This document shows, one piece after another, positions 715 to 14,212 of a stretch of DNA of 64,000 nt; position 1 is the stretch's first letter, and each line of letters opens with the position of its first letter. A program made the position numbers and the translations under genes. Source of the DNA: Micromonospora sp. WMMD1155. GTDB lineage: Bacteria > Actinomycetota > Actinomycetes > Mycobacteriales > Micromonosporaceae. Location: positions 594,501 through 658,500 of the forward strand of contig NZ_CP120742.1 of the NCBI RefSeq assembly GCF_029581275.1, read 5' to 3'. Below the pieces are notes generated by a model, which was not told where the DNA came from, did no database searches, and worked only from the letters and a program-made list of their open reading frames with translations.

Positions 715-1767
715 ATGACGGCGACAATCAAGATCGGACCGCACGCGGTCGGTGCCGGGGAGCGACCGTTCGTGGTCGCCGAGATGTCCGGCAACCACAA
801 CGGTGACCTGAACCGGGCACTGGCCATCGTGGACGCGGTGGCCGAGAGCGGGGCGCACGCGCTGAAGCTCCAGACGTACCGCCCGGACACCATCACGATC
901 GACGTCGACACCCCGGCGTTCCGGATCTCCAACGGGCACGAGTTGTGGGGCGGCGAGAACCTGTACCGCCTCTACGAGCGGGCGCACACCCCGTACGAGT
1001 GGCACGCCCCGATCTTCGAACGGGCCCGCGAGCGCGGTCTGACCGTGTTCTCGTCACCGTTCGACGCGACAGCCGTGGAGCTGCTGGAGTCGTTGGACGC
1101 GCCCGCGTACAAGATCGCTTCTTCGGAGTTGGTCGACCTGCCGCTGATCCGGCTCGTGGCCGGCACGGGCAAGCCGATGGTCATCTCCACGGGCATGGCG
1201 ACGGTCGCCGAGATCGACGCCGCGGTGCGGACCGCCCGGGACGGTGGCGCGGCGGGCATCGTCCTGCTGGCCTGCACCGCGTCCTACCCGGCGCCGCCGG
1301 CCGACAGCAACCTGCGCCGGCTGCCGGTGCTGGCCGGCGCGTTCGACGTGCCGGTGGGTCTCTCCGACCACACGCCGGGCATCGGGGTGGCGGTCGCCTC
1401 GGTGGCGCTCGGCGCCTGCTTCATCGAGAAGCACGTCACGCTGGACCGGGCCGACGGCGGCGTGGACTCGGACTTCTCCCTGAACCCGGCGGAGCTGGCG
1501 GCCCTGGTCGCCGAGTCCGGCCGCGCGTACTCGGCGCTGGGTGGCACCGCGATCGGCCCGACACCGGCCGAGCGGGAGGGGCTTCGGTTCCGCCGTTCGC
1601 TGTTCGTGGTCGAGGACGTACGCGCCGGTGACCCGGTCACCGTCCACAATGTGCGGTCGATCCGACCGGCCGGTGGGCTGGCTCCGGTGGAGATCGACCG
1701 GGTGCTGGGCCGTACCTTCACCACCGACGTCCCCCGCGGCACCCCGCTGAGCTGGGACCTGATCTGA
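715..1767 (+). CDS. pseI: Pseudaminic acid synthase (NeuB/PseI family)
   Basis: This enzyme condenses phosphoenolpyruvate with 6-deoxy-AltdiNAc to form the nine-carbon pseudaminic acid in the cytoplasm. The 350-residue protein has the family layout: a TIM barrel opening with AEMSGNHNGD (residues 22-31), KLQTYRPDTI, FSSPFD, YKIASSELVDLPL, the LSDHTPG segment and FIEKHVTLDR with metal-ligand histidines, then a C-terminal antifreeze-like SAF domain (about 290-350, RRSLFVVEDVRAGD). The length is normal. The ATG at 715 is chosen because an AGAGGT-like site lies just before it and the family N-terminus begins here; the frame stays open upstream without family similarity. PseI is preferred over NeuB or legionaminic acid synthase because PseB, PseC, PseF-like, PseG and PseH-like genes follow within 13 kb. 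Confidence 0.88.
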   Translation: MTATIKIGPHAVGAGERPFVVAEMSGNHNGDLNRALAIVDAVAESGAHALKLQTYRPDTITIDVDTPAFRISNGHELWGGENLYRLYERAHTPYEWHAPIFERARERGLTVFSSPFDATAVELLESLDAPAYKIASSELVDLPLIRLVAGTGKPMVISTGMATVAEIDAAVRTARDGGAAGIVLLACTASYPAPPADSNLRRLPVLAGAFDVPVGLSDHTPGIGVAVASVALGACFIEKHVTLDRADGGVDSDFSLNPAELAALVAESGRAYSALGGTAIGPTPAEREGLRFRRSLFVVEDVRAGDPVTVHNVRSIRPAGGLAPVEIDRVLGRTFTTDVPRGTPLSWDLI

Positions 1768-2048: not shown

Positions 2049-2480
2049 CTAGTCGTGCGCGCGGGTCGCGGGGGCGAAGCCGACGGTGACCACCAGGTCG
2101 GCCACCCGCAGGGTTCGCCAGAGGGCGCCGTCGTGCGCCGGAACGCCCAGCCCGTGCCGACGCCACCAGGTCGCGATCGGCACGTCGGCCAGCTTGCAGC
2201 AGCACTCGGCCCGGGTCCACCGGGCCCAGAACTCGCCGGTGCCGAACCGGCGGGCCAGCGCCGGCGGCACCGGCGCGTCGGCGCGCTCCGCGTCGATCGC
2301 CACCCGCCACCCGGGGACCGGTGGGCCGTACCAGCCGACACAGCGTCCGTCGCCGAGGTGACTACGGGTCAGGGCGTCGGCCAGGGCCGCCGGCGACCCG
2401 ATGCGCAGGTGCCGCTCGGCGGCGGCCAACAGGCCCGGCACCGGACGCAGACCCGGCCGCAGGTCAGATGGCGGCGGCAC
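2049..2480 (-). CDS. Small 4'-phosphopantetheinyl transferase-like protein
   Basis: A 143-residue protein with a compact version of the phosphopantetheinyl transferase signature: VAIDAERA for the (I/V)G(I/V)D-E metal site, then WTRAECCCKL for the W/F-x-x-K-E-x-x-x-K motif with the catalytic-type Glu and Lys kept. Enzymes of this type load phosphopantetheine from CoA onto carrier proteins. It is the last gene of a four-gene minus-strand operon whose first gene is an acyl carrier protein, which supports the call. The GTG at 2480 overlaps the reductase stop by 17 bases; a later start cannot be excluded because the ribosome site is weak. The protein is close to AcpS in size and much shorter than Sfp-type enzymes. 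The Lys before the key Glu is replaced by Ala, so activity is not assured. Confidence 0.6.
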   Translation of the reverse strand: MPPPSDLRPGLRPVPGLLAAAERHLRIGSPAALADALTRSHLGDGRCVGWYGPPVPGWRVAIDAERADAPVPPALARRFGTGEFWARWTRAECCCKLADVPIATWWRRHGLGVPAHDGALWRTLRVADLVVTVGFAPATRAHD

Positions 2481-3210
2481 CGTCCACCACGATGACCTGG
2501 CCGTTGATGTTCGTGTGCTCGCACAGCAGCATCCGGACCACGGGCGTGACCTCCTCCGGCTCGGTCAGGTGCCCGGTCGGCGTGCGGCGCACGATCTGGT
2601 CGAGCTGGGTCGGGCCGAGCACGGCGGACATCTCCGAGGCGAAGAAGCCGGGCGCGACCGAGTTCACCAGCATCCGGCCGCCCAACTCCCGAGCCAGCGA
2701 GCGCGTGGCGGCGTCCATGCCGCCCTTGGTGGCCGAGTACGCGACCAGGCCCGGGAAGCCGCGCTGCCCACAGATCGAGGTGATGTTGACGATCCGCCCG
2801 CGTAGCCCCTTGGCGAGCATCCGGCGGATCACCAGCCGGGTCAGTTGCAGCGGGGCGGTCAGGTTGGTCTCGATGATCCGCGCGATGTCGTCGTCGGCGG
2901 TGTGCGCGTGCAGCGAGTCCTGCCCCGTCGCGGCGTTGTTCACGACGCCGTCGATCGGGCCGAGGTGCTGTTCGGCGGCACGGACGAAGCTCTGCGCGGC
3001 GCGCAGGTCGGTGACGTCCACCGAGCCGACGTGCACCTGGTCGGGGTGCTCGGCGGCGAGCTTCTCCAGCTCCGGGGTGACGGTACGGGCGAACGCGGCC
3101 ACCCGTACGCCGGCGTCGAGCAGGTCGGTGACGATGGCCAGGCCCAGCCCTCGGGAGCCACCGGAGACGAGGACCACGGAGCTGGGTGGGACGAGCTGGT
3201 TGTCAGACAT
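2464..3210 (-). CDS. SDR reductase, FabG-like 3-oxoacyl-ACP reductase
   Basis: A 248-residue classical short-chain dehydrogenase. It has the cofactor motif GGSRGLGL (17-24), NNAA (91-94), Ser145 in NITSICG, and the catalytic YSATK with Tyr158 and Lys162. The length and the C-terminal GQVIVVDGG-type ending fit the FabG subfamily, which reduces 3-oxoacyl chains on acyl carrier protein with NADPH. Third gene of the minus-strand operon: its ATG overlaps the acyl ligase stop by 8 bases and its end overlaps the PPTase-like gene. Next to an ACP and a ligase, the simplest reading is reduction of a 3-oxoacyl-ACP to a 3-hydroxyacyl-ACP. The substrate is inference; a free keto-sugar substrate is the main alternative. 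Confidence 0.75.
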   Translation of the reverse strand: MSDNQLVPPSSVVLVSGGSRGLGLAIVTDLLDAGVRVAAFARTVTPELEKLAAEHPDQVHVGSVDVTDLRAAQSFVRAAEQHLGPIDGVVNNAATGQDSLHAHTADDDIARIIETNLTAPLQLTRLVIRRMLAKGLRGRIVNITSICGQRGFPGLVAYSATKGGMDAATRSLARELGGRMLVNSVAPGFFASEMSAVLGPTQLDQIVRRTPTGHLTEPEEVTPVVRMLLCEHTNINGQVIVVDGAAAI

Positions 3211-4468
3211 CGCTCTTCAGGGTCTCCTTGACGGGAATCTCGGTCAGCACACGGATCCGACGCGGTACCGCGTGCTCGGGAAGCCGGTCGGCGCACCAGC
3301 GGACCAGCGCGGCCTCGTCGACGTCCAGGTGCTCGGCGGGGGCGAGAACCACCTCGGCGACCACCATCCGGCCGAGCACCGGCGCACGGCGGCCGGTGAC
3401 GCGGGCCCAGGCCACCGCCGGATGCTCGGTGAGCACACCGCGGACCACTCCGGCGGAGACCTTGCTGCCGCCGACGTTGATCTCGTCGGAGTCCAGTCGG
3501 CCGGTGATCAGCACCCGGCCGTCGAGCACCTGCACCCGGTCCCCGGTGCGGACCGGGCCGGCCAGTCCGGCCCCGTGGAACGGGGAGGTGACGACCAGCT
3601 CGTCGTCCACCACCGAGAGCGTCGGCCGGCCCGGGGTGTCCCGGTCCAGCCAGTCGACCGGGAACCCGGCTCGCCCGTCGTGCACCACGATGGACGCCCC
3701 CACCTCGGAGGACGCGTAGATCCAGGAGATCCGGGCCGCGGGGAAGACGTCCCGGAGCTGGTCCAGGATCGCCTGGTCCACCGGCTCGCCGCCGAGGGTG
3801 ATCTGGCGCAGCGGCACCCGCGCCAACGCGGCGGCGTCGCGGTAGAGGGTGCGCCGCCAGAAGGTGGGGGTGCCGGAGGCGGCGTCGACGCCGTGGGCGG
3901 CCGCGACAGCGGGCCAGTCGTCCAACTCGTCCGGCTCGACCACCACCAGGTGCTGGCCGGGCTGGGTCAACGACAGGGTGACGACCTGCCACCAGGCGTA
4001 CGTGCCGGGGGCGTACGGGCAGAGCCACGTCCGATCGGGCTGGTCGGCACGCACTGTGGTCAGCGTGTCGAGGGTGTGCCCGACCCGCTTGGGACGCCCG
4101 GTCGAGCCCGAGGTCAGCAGCCACAGCCGGCCGGCTTCGGCGGCTCGCGGCCGGGCCGGGACGCTCGGGTGCACTCCCTCGCCGTCGAGGACGCCGACGG
4201 TGAACCCGGCGTCGAGCAGTTCGGCACGCATCGCCGCGTCGACCCGGCTCACGGTGCTGAGCAGCAGCTCGGTGCCGTGCACGGCGTGCTGCCGGGCGGC
4301 GGCGAGCGCGTGCACGGCGGAGTGGGCGAGCACCGCGCCCGGGTCGGGGAGCGTCGGCAGCGGCAGCGCCCGCCAGGTCAGCGCGGTGCCGCCGACGACG
4401 AGCCGGTTGTCGACGCCAGCCGGCTCCGGGCCCGCCGGTGGCCGGTGGCCCGTCGTCGCGACCGTCAC
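3203..4468 (-). CDS. AMP-forming acyl ligase (ANL superfamily), likely acyl-ACP ligase
   Basis: A 421-residue ANL adenylating enzyme. The ATP P-loop LLTSGSTGRPK lies near residues 117-127, SSEVGA matches the A5 region, TGDRV is the A7 motif and TGRLDSDEINVGG is the hinge region. The C-terminal VKETLKSDV carries the A10-type lysine. It is about 100 residues shorter than typical acyl-CoA synthetases, mainly at the N-terminus, like stand-alone ligases that charge a partner carrier protein. The GTG start overlaps the ACP stop in GTGA, so ACP and ligase are probably made in equal amounts. Expected reaction: a short carboxylic acid plus ATP gives acyl-AMP, which is then transferred to the ACP thiol. 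The substrate cannot be read from sequence. Confidence 0.75.
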   Translation of the reverse strand: MTVATTGHRPPAGPEPAGVDNRLVVGGTALTWRALPLPTLPDPGAVLAHSAVHALAAARQHAVHGTELLLSTVSRVDAAMRAELLDAGFTVGVLDGEGVHPSVPARPRAAEAGRLWLLTSGSTGRPKRVGHTLDTLTTVRADQPDRTWLCPYAPGTYAWWQVVTLSLTQPGQHLVVVEPDELDDWPAVAAAHGVDAASGTPTFWRRTLYRDAAALARVPLRQITLGGEPVDQAILDQLRDVFPAARISWIYASSEVGASIVVHDGRAGFPVDWLDRDTPGRPTLSVVDDELVVTSPFHGAGLAGPVRTGDRVQVLDGRVLITGRLDSDEINVGGSKVSAGVVRGVLTEHPAVAWARVTGRRAPVLGRMVVAEVVLAPAEHLDVDEAALVRWCADRLPEHAVPRRIRVLTEIPVKETLKSDV

Positions 4469-4716
4469 TGGTGCTGTAGCTCGACGAGGAAGTCGAGGAC
4501 GTCCCCGACGGTGGCGATACGGCGCAGGCCGGGTGCGTCGAAGTTGAGCTCCTCCCCCGTCTCGTCCTCCACCCGCAGGGCCAGCTCGGAGAAGTCCAGC
4601 GACCGGAAGCCGATCTCGCGCAGCTGCGCGGCGTCGTCAGCGGGCAGCTCCTTGTCCTGATTCTTCAGCACCTGAGCCATGAGGTCGCGGATCTGCGCGC
4701 GACTCAATTCGTTCAT
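4465..4716 (-). CDS. Acyl carrier protein
   Basis: An 83-residue acidic helical protein with the carrier-protein pattern: IGFRSLDFSELAL places the phosphopantetheine-accepting serine at residue 39, followed by the acidic recognition helix ALRVEDETGEEL and a FDAPGLRRIATVGDVLDFL tail. The usual D-S-L is R-S-L here. The ATG at 4716 is chosen because the match to the family begins at MNELSRAQIR; a start at 4746 would add ten residues with no family match. First gene of the operon ACP-ligase-reductase-PPTase. TAGACT lies 13 bases before the ATG and could be a -10 box. It is not the housekeeping fatty-acid ACP, since fab genes are absent. Confidence 0.85.
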   Translation of the reverse strand: MNELSRAQIRDLMAQVLKNQDKELPADDAAQLREIGFRSLDFSELALRVEDETGEELNFDAPGLRRIATVGDVLDFLVELQHQ

Positions 4717-4816
4717 GCGCCGGAGTCTACAACCCAACGAATGCATATCTGCTTTGCCGGTAGGCCCGGGTAGGGTGCCGGGACCGGACGTGAACAGCCA
4801 AGAAAGCGAGACGCAC
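4717..4816. promoter_or_regulatory. Divergent promoter region between the ACP operon and the pseH-like gene
   Basis: A 100-base region separates the divergent ACP and GNAT genes. On the minus strand TAGACT sits 13 bases before the ACP start; on the plus strand TAGGGT lies at about 4771. Both resemble actinobacterial -10 boxes, but I see no convincing -35 partner. Shared control of the two units is inferred from the divergent layout. Confidence 0.35.
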
Positions 4817-5326
4817 GTGCTGCGCGAAGCGACAGCGGACGACGTTCACCTGATGTTGTCCTGGCGTAATCAGGAAACCAACCGCCAGGTCAGCAAGACC
4901 AGTCACGAGATCACCGCCGAGGAGCACGCCCGGTGGTGGTCGGCGGTCCGGGACGACCCGTCCCGGCGGGTTCTGATGTACGTCCGAGAGGACCGACCCT
5001 GCGGGGTGGTCACCTTCTTCGACCTGCGGTTGGACGGCCCACGGACGGGAGCGTGGGGCTTCTATCTGGACGCCGACGGGCTGGACGGGAGGGGCGAGAC
5101 GCTGCCTGCCTGGCTGGGGGTCATGCGGGAGGCCGTGGAGTATGCCTTCGACGGGCTGCACCTGGACCGCCTGGACGGGGAGGTGCTCGCGCACAATACC
5201 GTCGTACGGCAGATGAACCGACGTTTCCGATTCGTCGAGGGCACCCCACGCCAGGAGTCGTCCAACGGTCGGGAAATCACGGTCATCCCGATTTCCCTGG
5301 CCCGGGCCGACCGTCGCCAACGCTGA
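4817..5326 (+). CDS. pseH: GNAT N-acyltransferase, PseH-like
   Basis: A 169-residue GNAT protein. It begins VLREATADDVHLML, the family opening, then LSWRNQETNRQVSKTSHEIT, a central beta strand GVVTFFDLRLDG, a GAWGFYLD segment and LPAWLGVMREAVEYAFDGL, and ends with the N-terminal-amine-transferase-like LHLDRLDGEVLAHNTVVRQMNRRFRFVEG. This is the pattern of PseH, which acylates the 4-amino group of UDP-4-amino-4,6-dideoxy-AltNAc. GTG at 4817 is chosen by fit to the family; GTG at 4790 would add nine residues. The Q/R-A-x-G-x-G/A acyl-CoA loop is poorly conserved, which fits either divergence or a carrier-protein donor. It is divergent from the ACP operon by 100 bases. Confidence 0.7.
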   Translation: MLREATADDVHLMLSWRNQETNRQVSKTSHEITAEEHARWWSAVRDDPSRRVLMYVREDRPCGVVTFFDLRLDGPRTGAWGFYLDADGLDGRGETLPAWLGVMREAVEYAFDGLHLDRLDGEVLAHNTVVRQMNRRFRFVEGTPRQESSNGREITVIPISLARADRRQR

Positions 5327-5430: not shown

Positions 5431-7167
5431 TCAGGCGCGCCGCCAGGCAGCCCAGTGCTGCGCCGGGTTACCGCCGAGCCGGACGAAGCCGTACGCGGTT
5501 CCGTCCCAGTCGTCGGCCTGCCCGGGCGCCCAGCGGGCGAACACCACCTGCGCGGCGGCCGGCGGCTGTCCGAGGCCGAACCAGCGGACGTCGGTCCAGG
5601 TCACCTGGTGACTGAGGTTGAACCGCAGGACGTAGTGCACACCGGTCGAGGCCCACACCCGCTCGCCGGGGCGTACGCCGACGTCGGCCACCGAGGGCGT
5701 CGGCGCGGTGCTCGCGACGGTGGGCCGCACGATGCGGTGATCGATGACCTGCATGGTCACCAGGTTGGCCACGACGAGCACGCCGAGCATCGGCATCCGT
5801 AGTCGGGGAACCAGGACGGCGGCGACCAGCAGCAGACAGCCGGCGATGCCGACCAGCGACCCGACCACCGGCCGCATCTCCCGCCACCCACCGGTCAACG
5901 CCACCAGGTCCGGTGCGCTGAAACCGCCGTAGCGCAGGTGGTGGCCACGACTGGCCACGTACGCGAGCCGGACGGCGATCAGCGCGCCACCGGCGACCAG
6001 CAGGGCCACCGCGACCGCCACCCGGCGCAGAACCACCCGGCGACCGGCGGTGAGGAGCACCCCGAGCCCCACCAGCAGCCAGAACGGCGCCAGCATCTGC
6101 ACGTAACGGCCGTAGATCGCGTCCAGCGGCTTGCCGGTGATGCCGGCCAGGATCACCGAGGCTCCACCGGCCACCCCGACGGTCACCACCAGCGCCACGC
6201 CCATCGTCCAGCGGGTCGCGTCGCCCTGCCGTGGCCGCCACAGCTCGCGTACGGCGGAGGCCCAGGCCACTCCCGCCAACCCGAATGTGATCACCACGAG
6301 GTACCAGAGTTGGGTGGCGACGGCGGCACCGACCCGGACCACCCCCTGCGCGGAGGCGACCGCCTCGACGGTGCCACCGCCGGGGGTGCTGCCGAGCAGG
6401 TAGACCTTGTCGCCGAGGTAGCGGATGGCGGCCGCGTTGACCAGCGCCATGGCGAGCACCGGCAGCAGCGCCGCGAGGACCGTGGGTGGGCTGATCCGCC
6501 GGCGCACGAACAGCAGCAGGACCAGCCCGGCGTGCACCGCCACGATCACCAGGCCCCGGGAGTGCAGCAGGTGGAACCCGCCGACCAGCAGACCGACGGT
6601 GGCGGCGGCGAGCGGACCGGGCCGCTCGATCCAGCGGTGCACGGCGAGCAACCAGGCCACCACCAGCGGAGCCATCACCGTGTCGATCATCGCGATGCCG
6701 GCGTAGAAGGCGGTGGCCGGCAGGGTCGCCGCCGCGACCGCTCCGAGCAGCGCATACGACCGGGGCAGCCGGAGCAGGCGGCGACCGAGCAGGTACGCCA
6801 ACGGCAGCAGCGTCGAGTTGATCATTGCGTTGATCAGTTGGACGATCCGGTAGCTGTCGGAGAAGTCCCGGTCCCCGAGGAACGCCGGCGAGATCAGCAT
6901 CGGGTAGCCGACCCGCCGCAGCAGGTCGTTCTCACTGCTGAAACCGCCCGGCCCGCCGGCCAGGGCACGGGCGGTGTTCAGGTAGCTGTCCTCGTCGGTG
7001 TGCGCGATCGGCAACACGATGTGCCGGGACAGCCACATCCGCCAGGCGACGCTGAGCACCCAACCGACGACCAACAGCACCGGCACCACCCAACGCCGGG
7101 TGGACACGGGGTCCGGTGTCGCCGCGACGACCTCCGGCCGTTCGATCACGTCGCTACCGGATGCCAT
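5431..7167 (-). CDS. Polytopic membrane protein, GT-C glycosyltransferase-like
   Basis: A 578-residue integral membrane protein with about 11 to 13 hydrophobic segments. After the first segment comes AHTDEDSYLNTARAL, an acidic first extracytoplasmic loop of the kind that carries the catalytic acidic residues in GT-C enzymes, which use polyprenyl-phosphate sugars. The last 120 residues form a soluble domain outside the membrane. The ATG at 7167 is preferred to a TTG at 7170 because GGAGG lies 6 to 7 bases upstream. It lies on the opposite strand between pseH and pseB, so a role in assembling or decorating the exported glycan is likely but unproven. It could also be an uncharacterised family without transferase activity. 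Confidence 0.5.
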   Translation of the reverse strand: MASGSDVIERPEVVAATPDPVSTRRWVVPVLLVVGWVLSVAWRMWLSRHIVLPIAHTDEDSYLNTARALAGGPGGFSSENDLLRRVGYPMLISPAFLGDRDFSDSYRIVQLINAMINSTLLPLAYLLGRRLLRLPRSYALLGAVAAATLPATAFYAGIAMIDTVMAPLVVAWLLAVHRWIERPGPLAAATVGLLVGGFHLLHSRGLVIVAVHAGLVLLLFVRRRISPPTVLAALLPVLAMALVNAAAIRYLGDKVYLLGSTPGGGTVEAVASAQGVVRVGAAVATQLWYLVVITFGLAGVAWASAVRELWRPRQGDATRWTMGVALVVTVGVAGGASVILAGITGKPLDAIYGRYVQMLAPFWLLVGLGVLLTAGRRVVLRRVAVAVALLVAGGALIAVRLAYVASRGHHLRYGGFSAPDLVALTGGWREMRPVVGSLVGIAGCLLLVAAVLVPRLRMPMLGVLVVANLVTMQVIDHRIVRPTVASTAPTPSVADVGVRPGERVWASTGVHYVLRFNLSHQVTWTDVRWFGLGQPPAAAQVVFARWAPGQADDWDGTAYGFVRLGGNPAQHWAAWRRA

Positions 7168-7531
7168 CAACGCCTCCAGGGTTGCCAGCCGGATCGGGCC
7201 CGCGCGGACTCCGCGGGCAGGTCGGCCCGCGTCGGTGACGCTCGGGATGAACCACCCGCACCGGGCGGTTCGGGTGTCGGATGAACGCGGGAGGTGGCCG
7301 CGAGAAGGGCCGCCGAGTCTCCCGCGCGGCCACTGTAACGGCCTCGACCGGACTGGTCAGGCCGGTTGCGGGCTACGGGGAAGTGTTCGCCCGCACGGTG
7401 CCCGGCATTCACGGGGGTAGGGGTCGCGGTTAACCGGCGAGCGCCGAGGAGTTAACCCGCCGTCGTTAGCGTCGCACCCCGGTCGGCCGGCCGAGGGCCG
7501 CTCGTTCATCCACGAACACGGGAGCACCAAA
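7168..7531. other. 364-base intergenic region upstream of the pseB operon
   Basis: Divergent control region between the GT-C-like gene (minus) and pseB (plus). The left half has no recognisable motif. The right half holds two GTTAACC sites 22 bases apart (7429 and 7451) and a GGGAG ribosome site for the TTG start of pseB. I find no credible open frame in it. Confidence 0.6.
7429..7458 (+). promoter_or_regulatory. GTTAACC direct repeat, candidate operator
   Basis: GTTAACC at 7429-7435 and again at 7451-7457, spaced exactly 22 bases (two helical turns), about 75 to 100 bases upstream of pseB. Each core GTTAAC is itself palindromic, and this is AT-rich for the region. Two regulator dimers bound on the same DNA face would fit, but no regulator gene lies in the locus. 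Confidence 0.4.
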
Positions 7532-8515
7532 TTGAGTGAGTTGAATGGATCGTCCATTCTGATCACCGGGGGAACGGGTTCCTTCGGCAGGACCTTCCTC
7601 CAGCACATCCTCACCGAGGCCGACCCCGCCCGCGTGGTGGTGTTCTCCCGCGACGAACTCAAGCAGTACGAGCTGCGTCAGCAACTGGGCGACGACCCGC
7701 GGCTGCGCTGGTTCATCGGCGACATCCGCGACCGGCACCGCCTCACCCGGGCCATGCACGGCGTCGACCACGTGGTGCACGCCGCCGCCCTGAAGCAGGT
7801 GGACACCGCGGAGTACAACCCCTCCGAGTACATCGCCACCAACATCACCGGCTCGCAGCACGTCGTCGACGCGGCGATCGAGGCCGGTGTCCGCAAGGTC
7901 ATCGCGCTCTCCACCGACAAGGCGTCCAGCCCGATCAACCTGTACGGCGCGACGAAGCTGGTCGGCGACAAGCTGTTCGTCTCGGCCAACCACTACGCCG
8001 CCCAGCACCCCACCCGGTTCGCCGTGGTGCGCTACGGCAACGTGGTGGGCAGCCGCGGCTCGGTCGTCCCGCTGTTCCGCCGGCTCGCCGCCGAGGGCAA
8101 GAGTCTGCCGATCACCGACAAGCGGATGACCCGCTTCTGGATCACGCTGGACCAGGCCGTCCAGTTCGTCATGGACTCGTTCGACCAGATGCAGGGCGGC
8201 GAGCTGTTCGTGCCGCGTATCCCGAGCATGCGCATCCTCGACCTGGTCGAGGCCGTGGCACCGGACGCCACCACCCACGAGGTCGGCATCCGTCCGGGCG
8301 AGAAGCTGCACGAGGAGATGATCGCTCCCGACGACAGCCGGCGGACGCTGCGCGCCGACGGCCGGTTCATCGTCCAGCCGACCATCGCCACCTGGGGTTA
8401 CCAGCCGCCGGTCGACTGCGACCCGGTTCCGGACGGCTTCGCCTACCAGTCGGACACCAACGACGAGTGGCTCACCGTCGAGCAACTGCGCGACATGCTC
8501 GGCATCACCGCATGA
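7532..8515 (+). CDS. pseB: UDP-GlcNAc 4,6-dehydratase (inverting)
   Basis: First enzyme of pseudaminic acid synthesis: it converts UDP-GlcNAc to the 4-keto-6-deoxy-L-altro sugar by 4,6-dehydration with 5-epimerisation. The 327-residue extended-SDR protein has NAD motif GGTGSFG (13-19), FSRDELKQYELRQ, AAALKQVDTAEYNP, and the catalytic segment STDKASSPINLYGATK with Asp129, Lys130, Tyr138 and Lys142. The D-K-Y set marks FlaA1/PseB enzymes as opposed to retaining dehydratases. The TTG at 7532 has GGGAG 8 bases upstream and the family N-terminus starts there. First gene of an operon; its stop overlaps pseC as ATGA. Confidence 0.92.
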   Translation: MSELNGSSILITGGTGSFGRTFLQHILTEADPARVVVFSRDELKQYELRQQLGDDPRLRWFIGDIRDRHRLTRAMHGVDHVVHAAALKQVDTAEYNPSEYIATNITGSQHVVDAAIEAGVRKVIALSTDKASSPINLYGATKLVGDKLFVSANHYAAQHPTRFAVVRYGNVVGSRGSVVPLFRRLAAEGKSLPITDKRMTRFWITLDQAVQFVMDSFDQMQGGELFVPRIPSMRILDLVEAVAPDATTHEVGIRPGEKLHEEMIAPDDSRRTLRADGRFIVQPTIATWGYQPPVDCDPVPDGFAYQSDTNDEWLTVEQLRDMLGITA

Positions 8516-9669
8516 CGGGGATGCTCCCGTACGGCCGACAGTCGGTCACCGAGGAGGACATCGCCGCCGTCGCCGACGTGCTGCGCGGCGACTGGCTCAC
8601 CACCGGACCGCAGGTGGACGCCTTCGAGGCCGACCTCGCCCGGTGGACCGGCGGCGTGGGCGTCACCACCGTCTCCAACGGCACGGCGGCGCTGCACGTC
8701 GCGTACGCGGCCGCCGGGGTGGGGCCGGGTGACGAGGTGGTCGTCTCGCCGATGACGTTCGTGGCGACGGCCAGCAGCGCCGCCGCCCTCGGCGCGACGA
8801 TCGTGTTCGCCGACGTGGAGGACGAGACCTTCTGCCTCGACCCGGCCGCGGCAGCCGACGCGGTCACCTCGCGTACCCGGGTCGTCGCCGCCGTCGACTA
8901 CGCCGGCCACCCGGCCGACTACGACGCGTTGCGGACGTCCATGCTGGGCTCCGACGCGCTGCTGCTCGGCGACGCGGCGCACTCGATCGGCGGCACGTAC
9001 CACGGTCGACCGGTGGGCTCCCTCGCCGACCTGACCACGTTCTCGTTCTTCCCCACCAAGAACCTGACCACCGCCGAGGGCGGCGCCGTCGCGGCGCTCG
9101 ACCCGGAGGTCCTGAAGCGGGCCCGCCGTTTCCGCGGCGTCGGCGTGGTTCGCGACAGTCACGAGCTCCGCCACCCCGACGAGGGCGGCTGGTACTACGA
9201 GGTGCCCGAGTTCGGGTTGAACTACCGCCTGCCCGACGTGCTCTGCGCGCTGGGCCGCACCCAACTGCGCCGCCTCGGCGAGTTCAAGGCGCGCCGGGAC
9301 GCCCTGGTCGCCCGCTACGACGAGGCACTGGCCGAGCTGGACGGTGTGCTGACGCCGCACCGCAAGTCGTGGGCCGACCCGGTCTGGCACCTCTACCCGA
9401 TCCGGGTGCTCGACGGGCGTCGCCGCGAGGTGTACGACCGGATGCGCGCCGCCGGCATCGGCGTCCAGGTCAACTACGTCCCGGTGCACTGGCACCCGGT
9501 CTTCGCCGACCTCGGCTACCGGCGCGGGTCCTGCCCGGTGGCCGAGTCGTTCTACTCGCAGCAGCTGTCGTTGCCGCTCTACCCGGGGCTCAGCGACACC
9601 GACCAGGATCGCGTCATCGACGCGCTGACCTCGGCCCTGCGGGCCGGCTCGGTGCGTACCGCCGCCTGA
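8512..9669 (+). CDS. pseC: UDP-4-amino-4,6-dideoxy-AltNAc transaminase
   Basis: Aspartate-family PLP aminotransferase (DegT/DnrJ/EryC1), 385 residues, that aminates the PseB product at C4 using glutamate. Motifs: LPYGRQSVTEEDIAAV at the N-terminus (typical of PseC), SNGTAALHVA, VSPMTFVATASS, LGDAAHSIGGTY, and FFPTKNLTTAEGG with Lys183 forming the Schiff base. ATG at 8512 is used because it overlaps the pseB stop by 4 bases and MLPYGRQ matches the family start. The length is normal and all key residues are present. Confidence 0.92.
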   Translation: MTGMLPYGRQSVTEEDIAAVADVLRGDWLTTGPQVDAFEADLARWTGGVGVTTVSNGTAALHVAYAAAGVGPGDEVVVSPMTFVATASSAAALGATIVFADVEDETFCLDPAAAADAVTSRTRVVAAVDYAGHPADYDALRTSMLGSDALLLGDAAHSIGGTYHGRPVGSLADLTTFSFFPTKNLTTAEGGAVAALDPEVLKRARRFRGVGVVRDSHELRHPDEGGWYYEVPEFGLNYRLPDVLCALGRTQLRRLGEFKARRDALVARYDEALAELDGVLTPHRKSWADPVWHLYPIRVLDGRRREVYDRMRAAGIGVQVNYVPVHWHPVFADLGYRRGSCPVAESFYSQQLSLPLYPGLSDTDQDRVIDALTSALRAGSVRTAA

Positions 9670-9679
9670 TGGGAACCTG

Positions 9680-10528
9680 ATGCACCACGCCAACCACTTC
9701 TACGGCCACGCCCACGTGCTGGCCCGCTACGCCGGCCTCGGCGACCGGCACCCGCCGCGGATCAACGGGTACGTGCAGCACGGCTGGAACATCGGCGACG
9801 GTCTGGCCCCCGGCCACCCGTACGCCGAGCGCACCCCCAGCCTGCTCTGGTCGGAGCAGACCCGTCGGCGAGCCTGGTCGGTGGGTCGGCGCAACGTGGT
9901 CGTCATCGGGGCGCCGTTCACCTACCTGCTGGCCATGCGCCCGGAGGACCCACCGGCGCAGGAGCGGGAGGGCACCATCTGGTACCCGTTCCACGGCTGG
10001 GAGGGTCAGCACGTGAAGGGCGACCACCGCGCGCTGATCGCCCTCATCCAGGCCACCGAACCGGGCCCGGTCACGGTCTGCCTCTACTGGCACGAGTACC
10101 GGATGCGCGGCGTCCGCCGCCTCTACGAGCGGGCCGGGTTCCGGGTGATCTGCCACGGCTACCGGGGGCACTGGTGGAAGGACACCGACCCGGAGTTCCT
10201 GGACCGGCAACTGACCGAGCTGCGTCGGCATCGGCGGGTGGCCTCCAACCGGCTGACCAGCGCCATCTTCTACGGCATCGCGGCGGGTTGCGAACCGGCG
10301 GTCTACGGCGACCCGATGATCCTGTCCAACGAGGACCCGACCTTCGGCGGCACCGCCCGCATCCGCCGCCAGTGGCCGGAACTGCACGGCACCGCTGTCG
10401 ACCTGCCCACCGCGGTCCGGATCGCCCGCGCCGAACTGGGCACCGACCACCGCTGCACGCCGGCCGAGCTGCGCGAGCTGCTCGGTTGGGCGAACCTCCA
10501 GGAGGAAGAGGACGACCGTGACGACTGA
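9680..10528 (+). CDS. Candidate GT-B-like glycosyltransferase of the pseudaminic acid operon
   Basis: A 282-residue soluble protein without a clear named family. Residues 20-110 give INGYVQHGWNIGDG, LLWSEQTRRRAWSVG and NVVVIGAPFTYLL, the pattern of an N-terminal Rossmann half in which an acceptor-bound GT-B enzyme recites HG.., W(S).., G.PF; the second half has CLYWHEYRMRGVRRLY, then RLTSAIFYGIAAGCEPAVYGDPM, similar to the E/G-P donor-site helix of capsule and glycerophosphate transferases. Placed between pseC and pseF inside the operon, it is the best candidate for the transferase that uses CMP-Pse. ATG at 9680 has GGGA 8 bases upstream. It overlaps the next gene by 11 bases. The function is inferred mainly from context. 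Confidence 0.5.
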   Translation: MHHANHFYGHAHVLARYAGLGDRHPPRINGYVQHGWNIGDGLAPGHPYAERTPSLLWSEQTRRRAWSVGRRNVVVIGAPFTYLLAMRPEDPPAQEREGTIWYPFHGWEGQHVKGDHRALIALIQATEPGPVTVCLYWHEYRMRGVRRLYERAGFRVICHGYRGHWWKDTDPEFLDRQLTELRRHRRVASNRLTSAIFYGIAAGCEPAVYGDPMILSNEDPTFGGTARIRRQWPELHGTAVDLPTAVRIARAELGTDHRCTPAELRELLGWANLQEEEDDRDD

Positions 10529-12341
10529 GACGGCACCCGCCGGCCGCATCACCCTGCCGGGCGGCGAGATGCTGGCCTGGTCCGACCTGCCGCAGAAGCG
10601 GTTGGCCGACGGTGGGCCCCTCGCCGCGCTCGCCACCCGGCTCGTGCCTCCCGGCGCCCGGGTCCTGGTGGCCGGGCCGCACGACCCGGCCCTGCTCGAC
10701 CAGCTCGGTCACGCCGAGGTGACCTGCCTGCTGCGCAGCCACCCGGACGCGGTCGCGCTCGCGAACCGGGCCGCCCACGTGGTGGTGGGTGGCCCGAGCG
10801 GGCTGCCCGCCGACGAGACGTACGACGTGGTGATCGCCGCCGCCGGTCTGGACCCGGTGGAGTCGGTGGAGGGCACCCGGCTCGGCTGGGACGCCGTGCT
10901 GGCAAGACTCGTCGCCGCCGTACGACCCGGTGGCGCGCTGCTCCTGCGCCTGGACAATCCGCTCGGTCTGCACCGACTCGTCTCCACCACCCCCTGGTAC
11001 GCCGCCCGGGACGACTCCGCCTGGGTGATCGGCGGGGTGCTGGACCGCGGCCACCCGGCCAACCGCGCCCAGCTCCGCGAACGGCTCACCGAGGCGGGGC
11101 TGCGGCCGGACGCGTGCTGGGCCGCGTACCCCGATGCCGGCAGCCCGACCGCCCTGCTCGACGCCGACCACCTCGACCGGGACGCCGGCTCCGGTCTCTT
11201 CGACGCCGTGCTGCACGGGGCGTGCGCGGGCGGTTCCACGAGGGACACCGTGCTCCAGGACCCGGCCCGGCTGGCGGTGGATGCGCTGCACGCCGGACGC
11301 GCCGCCGACCTCGCGCCGGGCTGGCTGGTGCTCGCCCACCGGCCCGCCGACGGCGGGGAGCGCCCGCCCGCCGCCGACCAGGACCTGCCGGTGGCGCTGA
11401 TCCAGACCGGGCGTCCCGGCATCGGCGTGTCGGAGGTGCTGCACGGCCCGTCGGGTCGGCGGTGGGGGCTCACCCCGACCACCGGCAGGCAGACGCCGCC
11501 CGCCGCGCCGTTCGCCAGCCGCGAGGCCGCGTACCGGGACGCGGACGCGCTGTCCGGGCCGGTGCCGTCCGGCCGGCTGCTGCGTACCCTGCTGCTCGAC
11601 GCGGCGCTGCGCCGCGACCTGGCGACCCTCCGCACGCTCCTGCACGGGTACGCGGGCTGGCTCGCCGCCCAGGCCGACGGCGACGGCCGGATCGCCGGGG
11701 CGGCGGCGCTGGCCGGCACCGACAACGTGGTGGTCGACGGCGACCGGTACGCGGTGCTCGACCCGAGCTGGCGAGCCACCGGCGCGTTGCCGGCCGACGT
11801 GGTGCTGGCCCGCGGGCTGTGGCGGTTCGCGGCGGGTCTGCTCACCGGCGGGTACGCCCACCCGTGGTCGTCCACCCTCGACGTCGCGGGTCTGACCGTG
11901 GTGCTCGGCGGACTCGCCGGTCACGACCTCGACCGCGCGACGGTCAGCGAGGCGGTGCAGACCGAGGCCGCCATCGCCGCCGCCCTGCACGGGTTGGACC
12001 CCGACGGCACCGTCGACCTCGCCGCCGAGATGCAGAGCGTCGCACCGACCGACCCGCCGATCGGGTCGCGCAGCTACCAGCAGCTCCGCGAGGCGTGGCT
12101 GCGCCAGCGCGAGGAGATCACCCGACTGGCCGCGCTGACCGCGTGGACCGAGGAACTGCTCACCTCGCGGGAGCGGGCGCTACGCCGCGCCGAGACGACG
12201 ATCGGCCTGCTCAGCGGCTCGATCAGCTACCGGGTCGGCCGACTCGCCATCACTCCGGCCCGGCTGGCCAAACGCGGCGCCCGTGCCGCCAAGCGGCGGG
12301 CCACCGCCGTGCTCGCTCCGAAGCAGGAGGAGCAGCAGTGA
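10518..12341 (+). CDS. Multidomain methyltransferase-like/kinase-like glycan protein
   Basis: A 607-residue protein with three visible parts. Residues about 30-200 form a degenerate SAM-methyltransferase fold (RVLVAGPHDPALL in place of the glycine-rich loop, then DVVIAAAGLDPV and VRPGGALLLRLDNPLG). Residues about 290-480 hold a pseudokinase-like segment with GTDNVVVDGDRYAVLDPSW, the counterpart of the N-L-V-D...D-x-E-W motif seen in methyltransferase/kinase fusions of polysaccharide loci. Residues 515-607 form a coiled coil followed by a basic tail (LLSGSISYRVGRLAITPARLAKR) also common at the ends of membrane-associated glycan enzymes. GTG at 10518 follows GGAGG. The lost SAM loop argues for a scaffold or chain-length role at least as much as for methylation. 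Confidence 0.5.
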   Translation: MTTETAPAGRITLPGGEMLAWSDLPQKRLADGGPLAALATRLVPPGARVLVAGPHDPALLDQLGHAEVTCLLRSHPDAVALANRAAHVVVGGPSGLPADETYDVVIAAAGLDPVESVEGTRLGWDAVLARLVAAVRPGGALLLRLDNPLGLHRLVSTTPWYAARDDSAWVIGGVLDRGHPANRAQLRERLTEAGLRPDACWAAYPDAGSPTALLDADHLDRDAGSGLFDAVLHGACAGGSTRDTVLQDPARLAVDALHAGRAADLAPGWLVLAHRPADGGERPPAADQDLPVALIQTGRPGIGVSEVLHGPSGRRWGLTPTTGRQTPPAAPFASREAAYRDADALSGPVPSGRLLRTLLLDAALRRDLATLRTLLHGYAGWLAAQADGDGRIAGAAALAGTDNVVVDGDRYAVLDPSWRATGALPADVVLARGLWRFAAGLLTGGYAHPWSSTLDVAGLTVVLGGLAGHDLDRATVSEAVQTEAAIAAALHGLDPDGTVDLAAEMQSVAPTDPPIGSRSYQQLREAWLRQREEITRLAALTAWTEELLTSRERALRRAETTIGLLSGSISYRVGRLAITPARLAKRGARAAKRRATAVLAPKQEEQQ

Positions 12342-13105
12342 GCGGGACGGCTGCGCCGGACCGGGTCGACGCGGCGCCCCGGATCATCGGCATCGTGCAG
12401 GCGCGAATGGGGTCGTCCCGACTGCCCGGCAAGGTGCTCCGTCCGCTCGCCGGTCGTTCCGTGCTCGGCCGGGTGGTCCGCGCCGCCTCCGACAGCGGGG
12501 TCCTGGCCGACCTGGTGGTCGCGACCAGCACCGACCCGATCGACGACGCCGTGGTGGCCGAGTGCGACCAGCTGGGCGTGGCGTACCACCGGGGTCCGGT
12601 CGACGACGTGCTGGACCGGTTCCTGGGTGCGCTCGCCGCGCACCCCGGCGACGCGGTCATGCGCTTCACCGCCGACTGCCCGCTGCTCGACCCGGAGATC
12701 ATCACCCTGGTCGCGTCGGTGTACCGGGCGGTCCCCGGGCTGGACTACGCCAGCACGTCGATCGCCCGCACCCTGCCCCGCGGGCTGGACGTCGAGATCG
12801 TCCGAGCGGAGACGTTGCGTACCGTCGGTCGGCTCGCCACCGACCACCACCGGGTGCACGTGACCTCGTACGCGTACACCCATCCGGAGCTGTTCCGGGT
12901 CCTCGGCGTGACGCTCACCCCGGACCGCTCCGCGCTACGGCTGACCCTCGACACCGAGCAGGACTGGGCGCTGGTCAGCGCGATCACCGACCACTTCGGC
13001 GACGTCAGCGTGCCGCTGGCCAAGCTCACCGACTGGCTCGACGGGCAGCCCCACCTGCGCGCGCTCAACGCCGACGTACGGCAGAAGCGGTTGGAGGAGT
13101 CCTGA
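12338..13105 (+). CDS. pseF: Cytidylyltransferase of SpsF/PseF type (CMP-pseudaminic acid synthetase candidate)
   Basis: A 255-residue nucleotidyltransferase beginning IIGIVQARMGSSRLPGKVL (residues 16-34), the signature of SpsF-like cytidylyltransferases, followed by VVATSTDPIDD, GVAYHRGPVDDVLDRF and MRFTADCPLLDPEII with the metal-binding Asp. In this locus it should activate pseudaminic acid with CTP. It starts at GTG in a GTGA overlap with the previous stop, with AGGAGGAG upstream. It is closer to SpsF than to the canonical PseF subgroup, so the symbol rests partly on the presence of all other Pse steps and the absence of another CMP-sugar synthetase. Confidence 0.75.
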   Translation: MSGTAAPDRVDAAPRIIGIVQARMGSSRLPGKVLRPLAGRSVLGRVVRAASDSGVLADLVVATSTDPIDDAVVAECDQLGVAYHRGPVDDVLDRFLGALAAHPGDAVMRFTADCPLLDPEIITLVASVYRAVPGLDYASTSIARTLPRGLDVEIVRAETLRTVGRLATDHHRVHVTSYAYTHPELFRVLGVTLTPDRSALRLTLDTEQDWALVSAITDHFGDVSVPLAKLTDWLDGQPHLRALNADVRQKRLEES

Positions 13106-13110
13106 GCACC

Positions 13111-14163
13111 TTGCGGGTCGGGTTACGGTGCGACGCGGGGCCACGACGAGGCGTCGGCCACCTCGTCCGCTGCCTGGCGCTCGCCGAGGAATTCCTCGCC
13201 CGAGGCGCCCACGTGGCCGTGTTCGGCACCGTCGAACGGCTCGACTGGGCCACCGCCGAGCTGGCCGCGCGGGGTATCCCCCGGCACCCGGGCCCGGACA
13301 CGCCGGACGGGCTGGTCGAGGCAGCTCGCCGACACGAGCTGGACGTGATGGTCCTCGACTCCTACGAACTGGACCCGGCCGGGGCAGGCGCCCTGCGCGA
13401 CGCCGGAGTGTTCACCCTCGCCGTGATCGACGGGGACAGCCGAGGACAGGTCGCCGACCTCTACCTCGACCAGAACTTCGGCGCGCGACTACCGGAGCTG
13501 CCCGGACGCCTGCTCGCCGGCAACGACTACGCCCTGCTCCGTGACTCCGTGATCGCCGCCCGACCACCGGTCCCTCCGCCGCCCACGGCGGTCAGCCGCC
13601 CCCGGGTGCTGGCCTTCTTCGGCGGGACGGACGCCGTCGGCGCGGCCCCGTTGCTGACCCGGATCCTGGTGGCCACCGGTCATCCGATGGACCTGACGGT
13701 CATCGTGGGCCGACCGGAGATCGAGGCGGAGGTGGAGGACGTCGCCCCCGGCCGTGGACAGGTCATCCGACCGGTTCCGCCCACCACCTCGCTTCCGGCC
13801 CTGATCACCGAGGCCGACCTGGTGGTCAGCGCCGCCGGCACGTCCACCTGGGAACTGTGCTGCCTCGGCGCACCCGCCGCGCTGGTCTGCGTGGTCGACA
13901 ACCAACGCGAGTCGTACGCCCGCGTGGTGCGCCACGGCCTCGCCGCCGGTCTCGGGGAGCTGCCGGAGCTGACCGCCACCGGAGTCGCTGGACGGGCCAC
14001 CCGCGCGACGGCGGCGCGGACCCTGCACGGGCTGCTCAGCTCACCGCAGCGGCGCGCGACCCTCGCCGCGCGGGCCTGGGCGACGATCGACGGGCGGGGC
14101 CGGGCACGGGTCGTGGACGCGGTGTTCGAAGCCGTCCGCCCACCCGCCGCCTCCACGCCGTGA
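13111..14163 (+). CDS. pseG: UDP-2,4-diacetamido-2,4,6-trideoxy-altropyranose hydrolase
   Basis: GT-B-fold hydrolase that releases UDP from UDP-6-deoxy-AltdiNAc just before the PseI step. With TTG at 13111 the 350-residue protein starts MRVGLRCDAG and places the catalytic-type histidine of RRGVGHLVRCLALA at residue 17. Later motifs: LDSYELDP, FFGGTDAVGAAP and VVSAAGTSTWELCCLGAPAALVCVVDNQ, the UDP-binding region. GGAGG at 13093 is 13 bases before this TTG; a CTG at 13102, 4 bases after GGAGG and overlapping the pseF stop as CTGA, would add three residues and is a real alternative. The 3' end is part of a duplicated segment. Confidence 0.85.
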   Translation: MRVGLRCDAGPRRGVGHLVRCLALAEEFLARGAHVAVFGTVERLDWATAELAARGIPRHPGPDTPDGLVEAARRHELDVMVLDSYELDPAGAGALRDAGVFTLAVIDGDSRGQVADLYLDQNFGARLPELPGRLLAGNDYALLRDSVIAARPPVPPPPTAVSRPRVLAFFGGTDAVGAAPLLTRILVATGHPMDLTVIVGRPEIEAEVEDVAPGRGQVIRPVPPTTSLPALITEADLVVSAAGTSTWELCCLGAPAALVCVVDNQRESYARVVRHGLAAGLGELPELTATGVAGRATRATAARTLHGLLSSPQRRATLAARAWATIDGRGRARVVDAVFEAVRPPAASTP

Positions 14164-14212
14164 TCGACGCCGTCCGCCCACCCGCTCCCGCCGCCTCCAC
14201 GCCGTGATCGAC
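14131..14212. repeat. Tandem duplication across the pseG stop codon
   Basis: Unit 1 (14131-14168, 38 bases) and unit 2 (14169-14212, 44 bases) are identical apart from a 6-base insertion in unit 2. Each contains CCTCCACGCCGTGATCGAC, so the pseG stop context is present twice; the stop is in unit 1. It looks like a recent slippage or recombination event. Confidence 0.8.

Follow-up and report, generated by a model that had tools for sequence, protein, structure and literature searches.

An acyl carrier protein cassette and its PseH-like GNAT as a probable exchangeable N-acylation module of actinobacterial pseudaminic acid biosynthesis

We analysed a window of 64,000 nt from Micromonospora sp. 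WMMD1155 (NZ_CP120742.1; coordinates are window positions), in which genes for an acyl carrier protein (ACP), an ANL (adenylate-forming) ligase, a FabG-like short-chain reductase (SDR) and a small phosphopantetheinyl transferase (PPTase)-like protein lie beside a gene for a PseH-like GNAT in a pseudaminic acid (Pse) locus. Comparison of genomes supports a place of this cassette in Pse biosynthesis and its link with the GNAT. We think it quite likely that GNAT, ACP, ligase and SDR act together in N-acylation within the Pse pathway, as a single exchangeable module. On the best reading the module would provide an acyl group other than acetyl with which the Pse precursor is N-acylated, and cassette and GNAT, as a co-inherited unit, probably decide which acyl group decorates Pse. 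The five genes are as follows.

2049..2480, minus strand: small PPTase-like protein, 143 aa; optional, last gene of the cassette
2464..3210, minus strand: FabG-like SDR (PF00106, 156.6 bits)
3203..4468, minus strand: ANL ligase, 421 aa (PF00501, 64.5 bits, and PF13193, 44.2 bits, both above cut-off)
4465..4716 (longer open reading frame to 4746), minus strand: ACP with a GFRSLDF motif (PF00550, 27.1 bits; cut-off 20.8)
4817..5326, plus strand: PseH-like GNAT of the cassette type, hereafter GNAT-A (PF13302, 30.4 bits)

Association with pseudaminic acid genes and co-inheritance with the GNAT

Two samples were used, 250 Micromonosporaceae genomes and 396 genomes of the phylum, both drawn from larger groups, with presence thresholds of 1e-45 for the cassette ligase, 1e-90 for the Pse synthase PseI and 1e-60 for LuxE. 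We call A-type the cassette of the window (ACP, ligase and SDR, with or without the PPTase) and lux-type a cassette of ACP, SDR, ligase, LuxE and LuxC. The cassette ligase was present in 38 of the 250 family genomes, every one of which carried PseI (106 PseI-positive genomes overall), and in 3/396 genomes of the phylum sample, again always together with PseI, which was detected there in 13. Among 91 genomes of the same genus, a ligase orthologue was found in 38 and PseI above its cut-off in 51; 37 of these 38 have PseI, the exception being an incomplete assembly (G052), in which PseB and PseC lie on a contig ending at that point and PseI was not found.

A scan of contigs from named genomes with six peptide patterns, by which diverged copies are missed, gave 47 cassette loci. 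One (L185, 26% identity) was discarded as unrelated; in 45 of the 46 left, the stretch with the cassette also carries a Pse core gene. In the 46th, from Actinophytocola, PseI and PseB are on other contigs of the genome, and the GNAT adjoins the cassette, apart from both. The hosts were Micromonospora, Verrucosispora, a Micromonosporaceae bacterium, Kribbella, Marmoricola, Nocardioides albus and Actinophytocola. GNAT and ACP genes were divergent in 50/50 loci and close together in 48. Cassette and GNAT are more than chance neighbours, as their order and the divergent GNAT are kept across several actinobacterial genera. The initial annotation had placed the cassette in Pse biosynthesis, and these counts bear it out; the opposite outcome, a cassette occurring mostly without Pse genes, was checked and is not what the genomes hold.

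Between the window and 14 non-A genomes, identity is 43–50% for the GNAT (GNAT-B in the non-A genomes), 79–87% for PseI and 85–95% for PseB, and none of 33 A-type loci keeps GNAT-B as a second GNAT. In a cross-genus GNAT tree of 56 rows, 19 A-type GNATs formed one group (SH-aLRT, an approximate likelihood ratio test, 99) with a single change of cassette type, whereas the PseI tree (48 rows, without Actinophytocola and seven lux genomes lacking PseI) needs at least three. Approximately unbiased (AU) tests rejected the A-type as a single PseI clade (p = 1.3e-5), a single clade of all Micromonospora GNATs (p = 1.2e-5) and a single clade of the GNATs of genus g74 (p = 1.3e-53). The PseB and PseC trees followed the host lineage, placing Micromonospora with GNAT-A and with GNAT-B together and g74 together; the PseG tree likewise kept Micromonospora together, a test that covers this genus alone, the PseG genes of the g74 lux genomes lying outside the stretches read.

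Genus g74 is the cleanest independent case of a swap: the PseI, PseB and PseC of G210 (A-type), G189 and G229 (both lux-type) are each other's closest relatives in these trees, although the cassettes differ. Since the GNAT tracks the cassette rather than PseI, PseB or PseC, GNAT and ACP-ligase-SDR set have been swapped as a unit at least twice. The tie between GNAT and cassette that had been proposed from the single locus is thus recovered from the trees. Second PseI genes (L227, L229, L230 and L236) were seen in G189, G229, G210 and G159; no other Pse gene was matched on their stretches.

The lux-type cassette

In 8 of 53 typed same-genus genomes, LuxC, LuxE, a different ANL ligase, an SDR and an ACP lie between PseI and PseB; L097:5066-9700 and L059:5088-9760 are examples in which this lux-type cassette replaces the A-type. 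With the thresholds used, the 106 PseI-positive family genomes divide into 38 with the A-type and 68 with LuxE, none having both and none neither, and 30 further same-genus genomes are concordant (20 of A-type lack LuxE, and 10 non-A genomes have it). No LuxE match at 1e-60 was found in the genome of the window or in any of the 38 A-type genomes, and no LuxC in the window stretch examined. LuxE occurs in 84 of the 250 family genomes, that is in 68/106 PseI-positive and 16/144 PseI-negative ones. Its distance from PseI in the 68 is below 15 kb in 41, 15–30 kb in 23 and farther in two, with another contig in the last two; it is thus within 30 kb in 64/68, sometimes in another cluster.

Six further same-genus genomes (B2) are without a cassette between PseI and PseB. 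Two of this group, G069 and G071, retain remnants of the lux set (B1), and all six carry LuxE elsewhere, which weakens the argument that GNAT-B uses acetyl-CoA because the B2 loci have no cassette. In four B2-like genomes (G006, G068, G069 and G356) the lux stretch lies 22–27 kb from PseI, in a cluster with PseC-like aminotransferases, and its LuxE is 68–69% identical to that of B1. Fourteen of the 16 PseI-negative LuxE genomes were examined; seven have a GNAT-B-like gene adjoining a lux-type ACP, and 11 have a PseC-like aminotransferase at 30–36% identity. Lux-type cassettes with a divergent GNAT-B-like neighbour, in genomes without PseI, were seen at L212, L215, L216, L218, L220, L222 and L223, the aminotransferase being on the stretch in six of these seven. 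The lux module probably also serves N-acylation of other amino sugars.

In tblastn searches (1e-4) the ligase and ACP of the window matched no lux-type counterpart, and its SDR is 31–35% identical to the lux-type SDRs. It may be that A-type and lux-type are two non-orthologous, interchangeable donor modules for the N-acyl step of Pse, each with its own GNAT clade using ACP and not CoA, so that the acyl type could be predicted from the genome; we hold this tentatively, at somewhat less than an even chance.

Related gene sets have been described in Aeromonas, where Group II flagellar glycosylation islands carry genes for an ACP, a 3-oxoacyl-ACP reductase and an AMP-dependent synthetase, with luxE and luxC, downstream of pseH, for which the authors proposed a liposugar role (PMC7874193; this paper and those cited below are used for the parts available); no test of an acyl-transfer role is given in those parts. 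Similar genes in enterobacterial flagellar islands were read as fatty-acid genes (PMC4875605). Compared by gene listing, the Aeromonas islands and the window are alike in having an ACP, a 3-oxoacyl-ACP-reductase-like SDR and an ANL ligase beside the PseH gene, and the Micromonospora lux-type cassette (L097, L059) holds five gene kinds in the Aeromonas order as listed in PMC7874193. Unlike both, the window set is without LuxE and LuxC and includes the extra small PPTase; its GNAT is of another clade than that of the Micromonospora lux-type loci. The statement in the initial annotation that no such system had been described holds at most for this precise gene combination in actinobacteria; genes for an ACP, a reductase and a ligase next to pseH are already in print for Aeromonas (PMC7874193). 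Within the open-licence literature searched, what is new is the A-type set including the PPTase, the link of this set to actinobacterial Pse, the finding that A-type and lux-type complement each other, and the inheritance of the GNAT along with its cassette. Searches of open-licence PMC papers did not find pseudaminic acid, 3-hydroxybutyryl and acyl carrier protein together, nor anything related, by title, on pseudaminic acid with Micromonospora.

Genes and proteins of the locus

The other Pse genes of the window are these.

715..1767, plus strand: PseI, pseudaminic acid synthase (TIGR03586, 454 bits; cut-off 340)
7532..8515, plus strand: PseB, inverting UDP-GlcNAc 4,6-dehydratase (TIGR03589, 495 bits; cut-off 408)
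8500..9669, plus strand: PseC-like aminotransferase, start uncertain (TIGR03588, 391.9 bits, below the cut-off of 423.5)
12338..13105, plus strand: PseF-like cytidylyltransferase (kdsB-type families best; TIGR03584, 28 bits, far below the cut-off of 205.7)
13087..14163, plus strand: PseG-like hydrolase (TIGR03590, 128.4 bits, below the cut-off of 153.55)

With PseB and PseI both above their curated cut-offs, the region qualifies as a Pse biosynthesis locus. The complement of B, C, F-like, G and I genes first assigned to it is found again, with C, G and F matching below cut-off, and the cautious label for the F-like gene was apt. The four minus-strand cassette genes, likewise in place, overlap successively by 17, 8 and 4 bases and diverge from the GNAT. 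A gap of exactly 100 bases between ACP and GNAT, as originally given, is obtained with ATG 4716 and GTG 4817, both of which are choices of start; the phosphopantetheine serine of the ACP is Ser39 from ATG 4716 and Ser49 from the longer reading frame.

The conservation of catalytic residues in the cassette proteins speaks for the module. The G-F-R-S-L-D-F of the ACP, modifiable serine included, is kept in at least 98% of 51 rows, and the same holds, in 52 rows, for the P-loop-like TSG.TGRPK, the YASSE and the C-terminal K418 region of the ligase and for S145, Y158 and K162 of the SDR. The best NCBIfam match of the SDR is 3oxo_ACP_reduc (TIGR01830) with 172.3 bits, below the curated cut-off of 297.75. 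Loss of the CoA pyrophosphate (P-loop) motif in GNAT-A was rejected as a sign of ACP use, the motif being degenerate in GNAT-A and GNAT-B alike. What we take to be the catalytic Tyr of PseH appears, as a suggestion made by eye, as Asn in GNAT-A and His in GNAT-B. The fold of the window GNAT resembles that of solved PseH (PDB 4xpk, 4ri1), and its score against the PseH family TIGR03585 is 82.8 bits, narrowly below the cut-off of 93.1.

The small protein at the end of the cassette matched none of the Pfam and NCBIfam families, PF01648 included, and a PDB sequence search with it gave no match; a single one of 28 family members matched PF01648, weakly (0.0048). Its structure model is confident (mean pLDDT, a per-residue confidence score, 90), the best matches among solved structures are PPTases, and D63, E65, W88, T89, E92 and K96 are invariant in the 28 members. 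Marks of the PPTase superfamily are a Mg-binding acidic pair, a WTxxExxxK motif and, usually, a Lys before the Glu. The first two are present here and the Lys is not kept. Predicted fold and invariant residues thus support a PPTase-like protein, and the initial assignment stands on these and not on Pfam, NCBIfam or PDB sequence matches. As a defining member of the set the PPTase has to be given up: it was not found beside 2/2 Kribbella and 3/3 genus g47 cassettes, and is dispensable for the cassette.

Two proteins at 9680-10528 and 10518-12341, without a convincing Pfam or NCBIfam match, accompany the Pse core in the majority of the same-genus loci examined and are candidates for Pse transfer or modification. 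Between GNAT and PseB, at 5431-7170, there is a large protein with no family match. It was seen in most A-type loci, not in L064, L085, L086, L100 and L103, and was not found in the stretches of 14 non-A Micromonospora genomes. A GGCGC-type tandem repeat (1941-2019) lies between PseI and the end of the cassette operon, and a second repeat, with a unit of ~44 bases (14117-14212), at the 3' end of the PseG-like gene.

Proposed acyl supply and its alternatives

We suggest that the ligase would activate a preformed short acid and load it on the ACP, where the SDR would reduce the acyl group, a 3-oxo group being the simplest case. The GNAT would then transfer the acyl to the 4-amino group of the UDP-sugar, later N7 of Pse, and cassettes with the small PPTase would use it to arm the ACP; the outcome would be Pse with a non-acetyl group at N7. 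The best single guess for that group, by analogy, is 3-hydroxybutyryl, to which we give about one chance in three. Its established occurrence on Pse of Acinetobacter speaks in its favour; there, exchange of psaG/psaH and psaD/psaE is tied to acetyl or 3-hydroxybutanoyl at N7 (PMC6586298, PMC9676051). Both systems link a gene swap to the N7 acyl group; two genes are exchanged in Acinetobacter, whereas the PseG-like gene is kept in Micromonospora, and 'acyl carrier' is absent from the main text of both papers.

In the dlt system the ligase DltA charges the small carrier DltC, and the product is a D-alanine ester. A ligase charging a small carrier for decoration of a surface polymer is common to dlt and the proposed module; GNAT and SDR have no part in dlt. 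FdhC, by the title of PDB 5ktc, was solved with the products CoA and 3-[(R)-3-hydroxybutanoylamino]-3,6-dideoxy-D-galactose, and its structure holds CoA.

Pse has been reported from actinomycete walls, and none of these reports was found in the literature searched, nor was a structure of actinobacterial wall Pse found in open-licence PMC papers. No actinobacterial Pse is named in the part of PMC9912281 available. The main wall polymer of Kribbella, an A-type carrier, is described as teichuronic or teichulosonic acid, Pse not being named in the part covered (PMC6113628); this fits Pse ending in the wall, and names no acyl group.

Several points weigh against the module as proposed. The fold and the score of the GNAT are compatible with an acetyl-CoA enzyme, and no motif discriminating ACP from CoA use was found in the GNATs. 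FdhC was matched weakly by a broad GNAT-A profile (8.8e-5), a match lost with a genus-only profile, and GNAT-B did not match it. The SDR falls below the 3-oxoacyl-ACP reductase cut-offs, so another substrate is possible, and with no ketosynthase in the set the acid has to be supplied from another source. If Micromonospora is taken by itself, the PseI and PseB trees place the A-type in one event, for which reason co-occurrence within the genus was rejected as proof by itself. The AU-test groups were picked after inspection of the trees, and the wide trees were quick ones, with SH-aLRT support only and without a mixture model, carrying long-branch warnings for G663, Nocardioides and G152. Finally, some lux-type genomes have their lux set in a separate cluster, where complementarity need not imply a role in Pse.

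The strongest alternative is a sub-case of the proposed module, with which its probability overlaps: the ligase may load another acid, such as a hydroxy or dihydroxy acid (dihydroxybutyrate, glyceric acid), or the SDR may act as a dehydrogenase, the final group not being 3-hydroxybutyryl. We put this only just short of an even chance. It draws on A. piscicola AH-3, whose island holds pseH with ACP, reductase, ligase, LuxE and LuxC and which has a putative Pse derivative of 376.14 Da (PMC7874193). Computed masses are 316.127 for Pse5Ac7Ac, 376.148 with a C4H6O3 acyl in place of acetyl and 360.153 with 3-hydroxybutyryl; the derivative, ~60 Da above Pse5Ac7Ac, fits the C4H6O3 acyl as arithmetic, not as a structure. 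However, the AH-3 set is lux-type and from another phylum, and other formulas fit as well. An unexplained 102-Da unit of the AH-3 flagellar glycan equals the nominal mass of a C4H6O3 acyl (PMC7874193).

It is rather unlikely that the acyl made by the cassette goes to another site on the Pse polymer or glycan, as an ester or lipid tail, with the GNAT an ordinary acetyl-CoA PseH linked to it by block recombination. Such genes were interpreted as fatty-acid or liposugar genes in the surveys of Aeromonas and Enterobacteriaceae (PMC7874193, PMC4875605), and three ligase-SDR relatives at 34–44% identity, one of them with an ACP, occur in other clusters with no Pse genes on the stretches read. Against this, no O-acyltransferase was seen moving with the cassette, in two lineages it is tracked by the GNAT rather than by PseI, PseB or PseC, and GNAT-B is gone from A-type loci. 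A distant ACP-ligase-SDR set was seen at L089:8030-10990 with two hexapeptide transferases, in a polysaccharide-like cluster with no Pse genes on the stretch. That the genes are chance neighbours, the cassette serving unrelated metabolism, is very improbable: the ligase superfamily is ubiquitous, with some match in 151/151 genomes, but close orthologues were found only in PseI-positive genomes (except G052, with PseB and PseC), and order and orientation are kept over several genera.

Nonulosonic acids vary widely in their N-acyl groups, which are part of cell-surface recognition, and to our knowledge the source of the unusual ones is mostly unknown. Transferase and supply genes that move together would give a direct genetic handle on these groups. 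The proposed module predicts a chemical difference between close relatives, and it suggests how the 'fatty acid' genes found in flagellar glycosylation islands of Aeromonas and enterobacteria may be interpreted.

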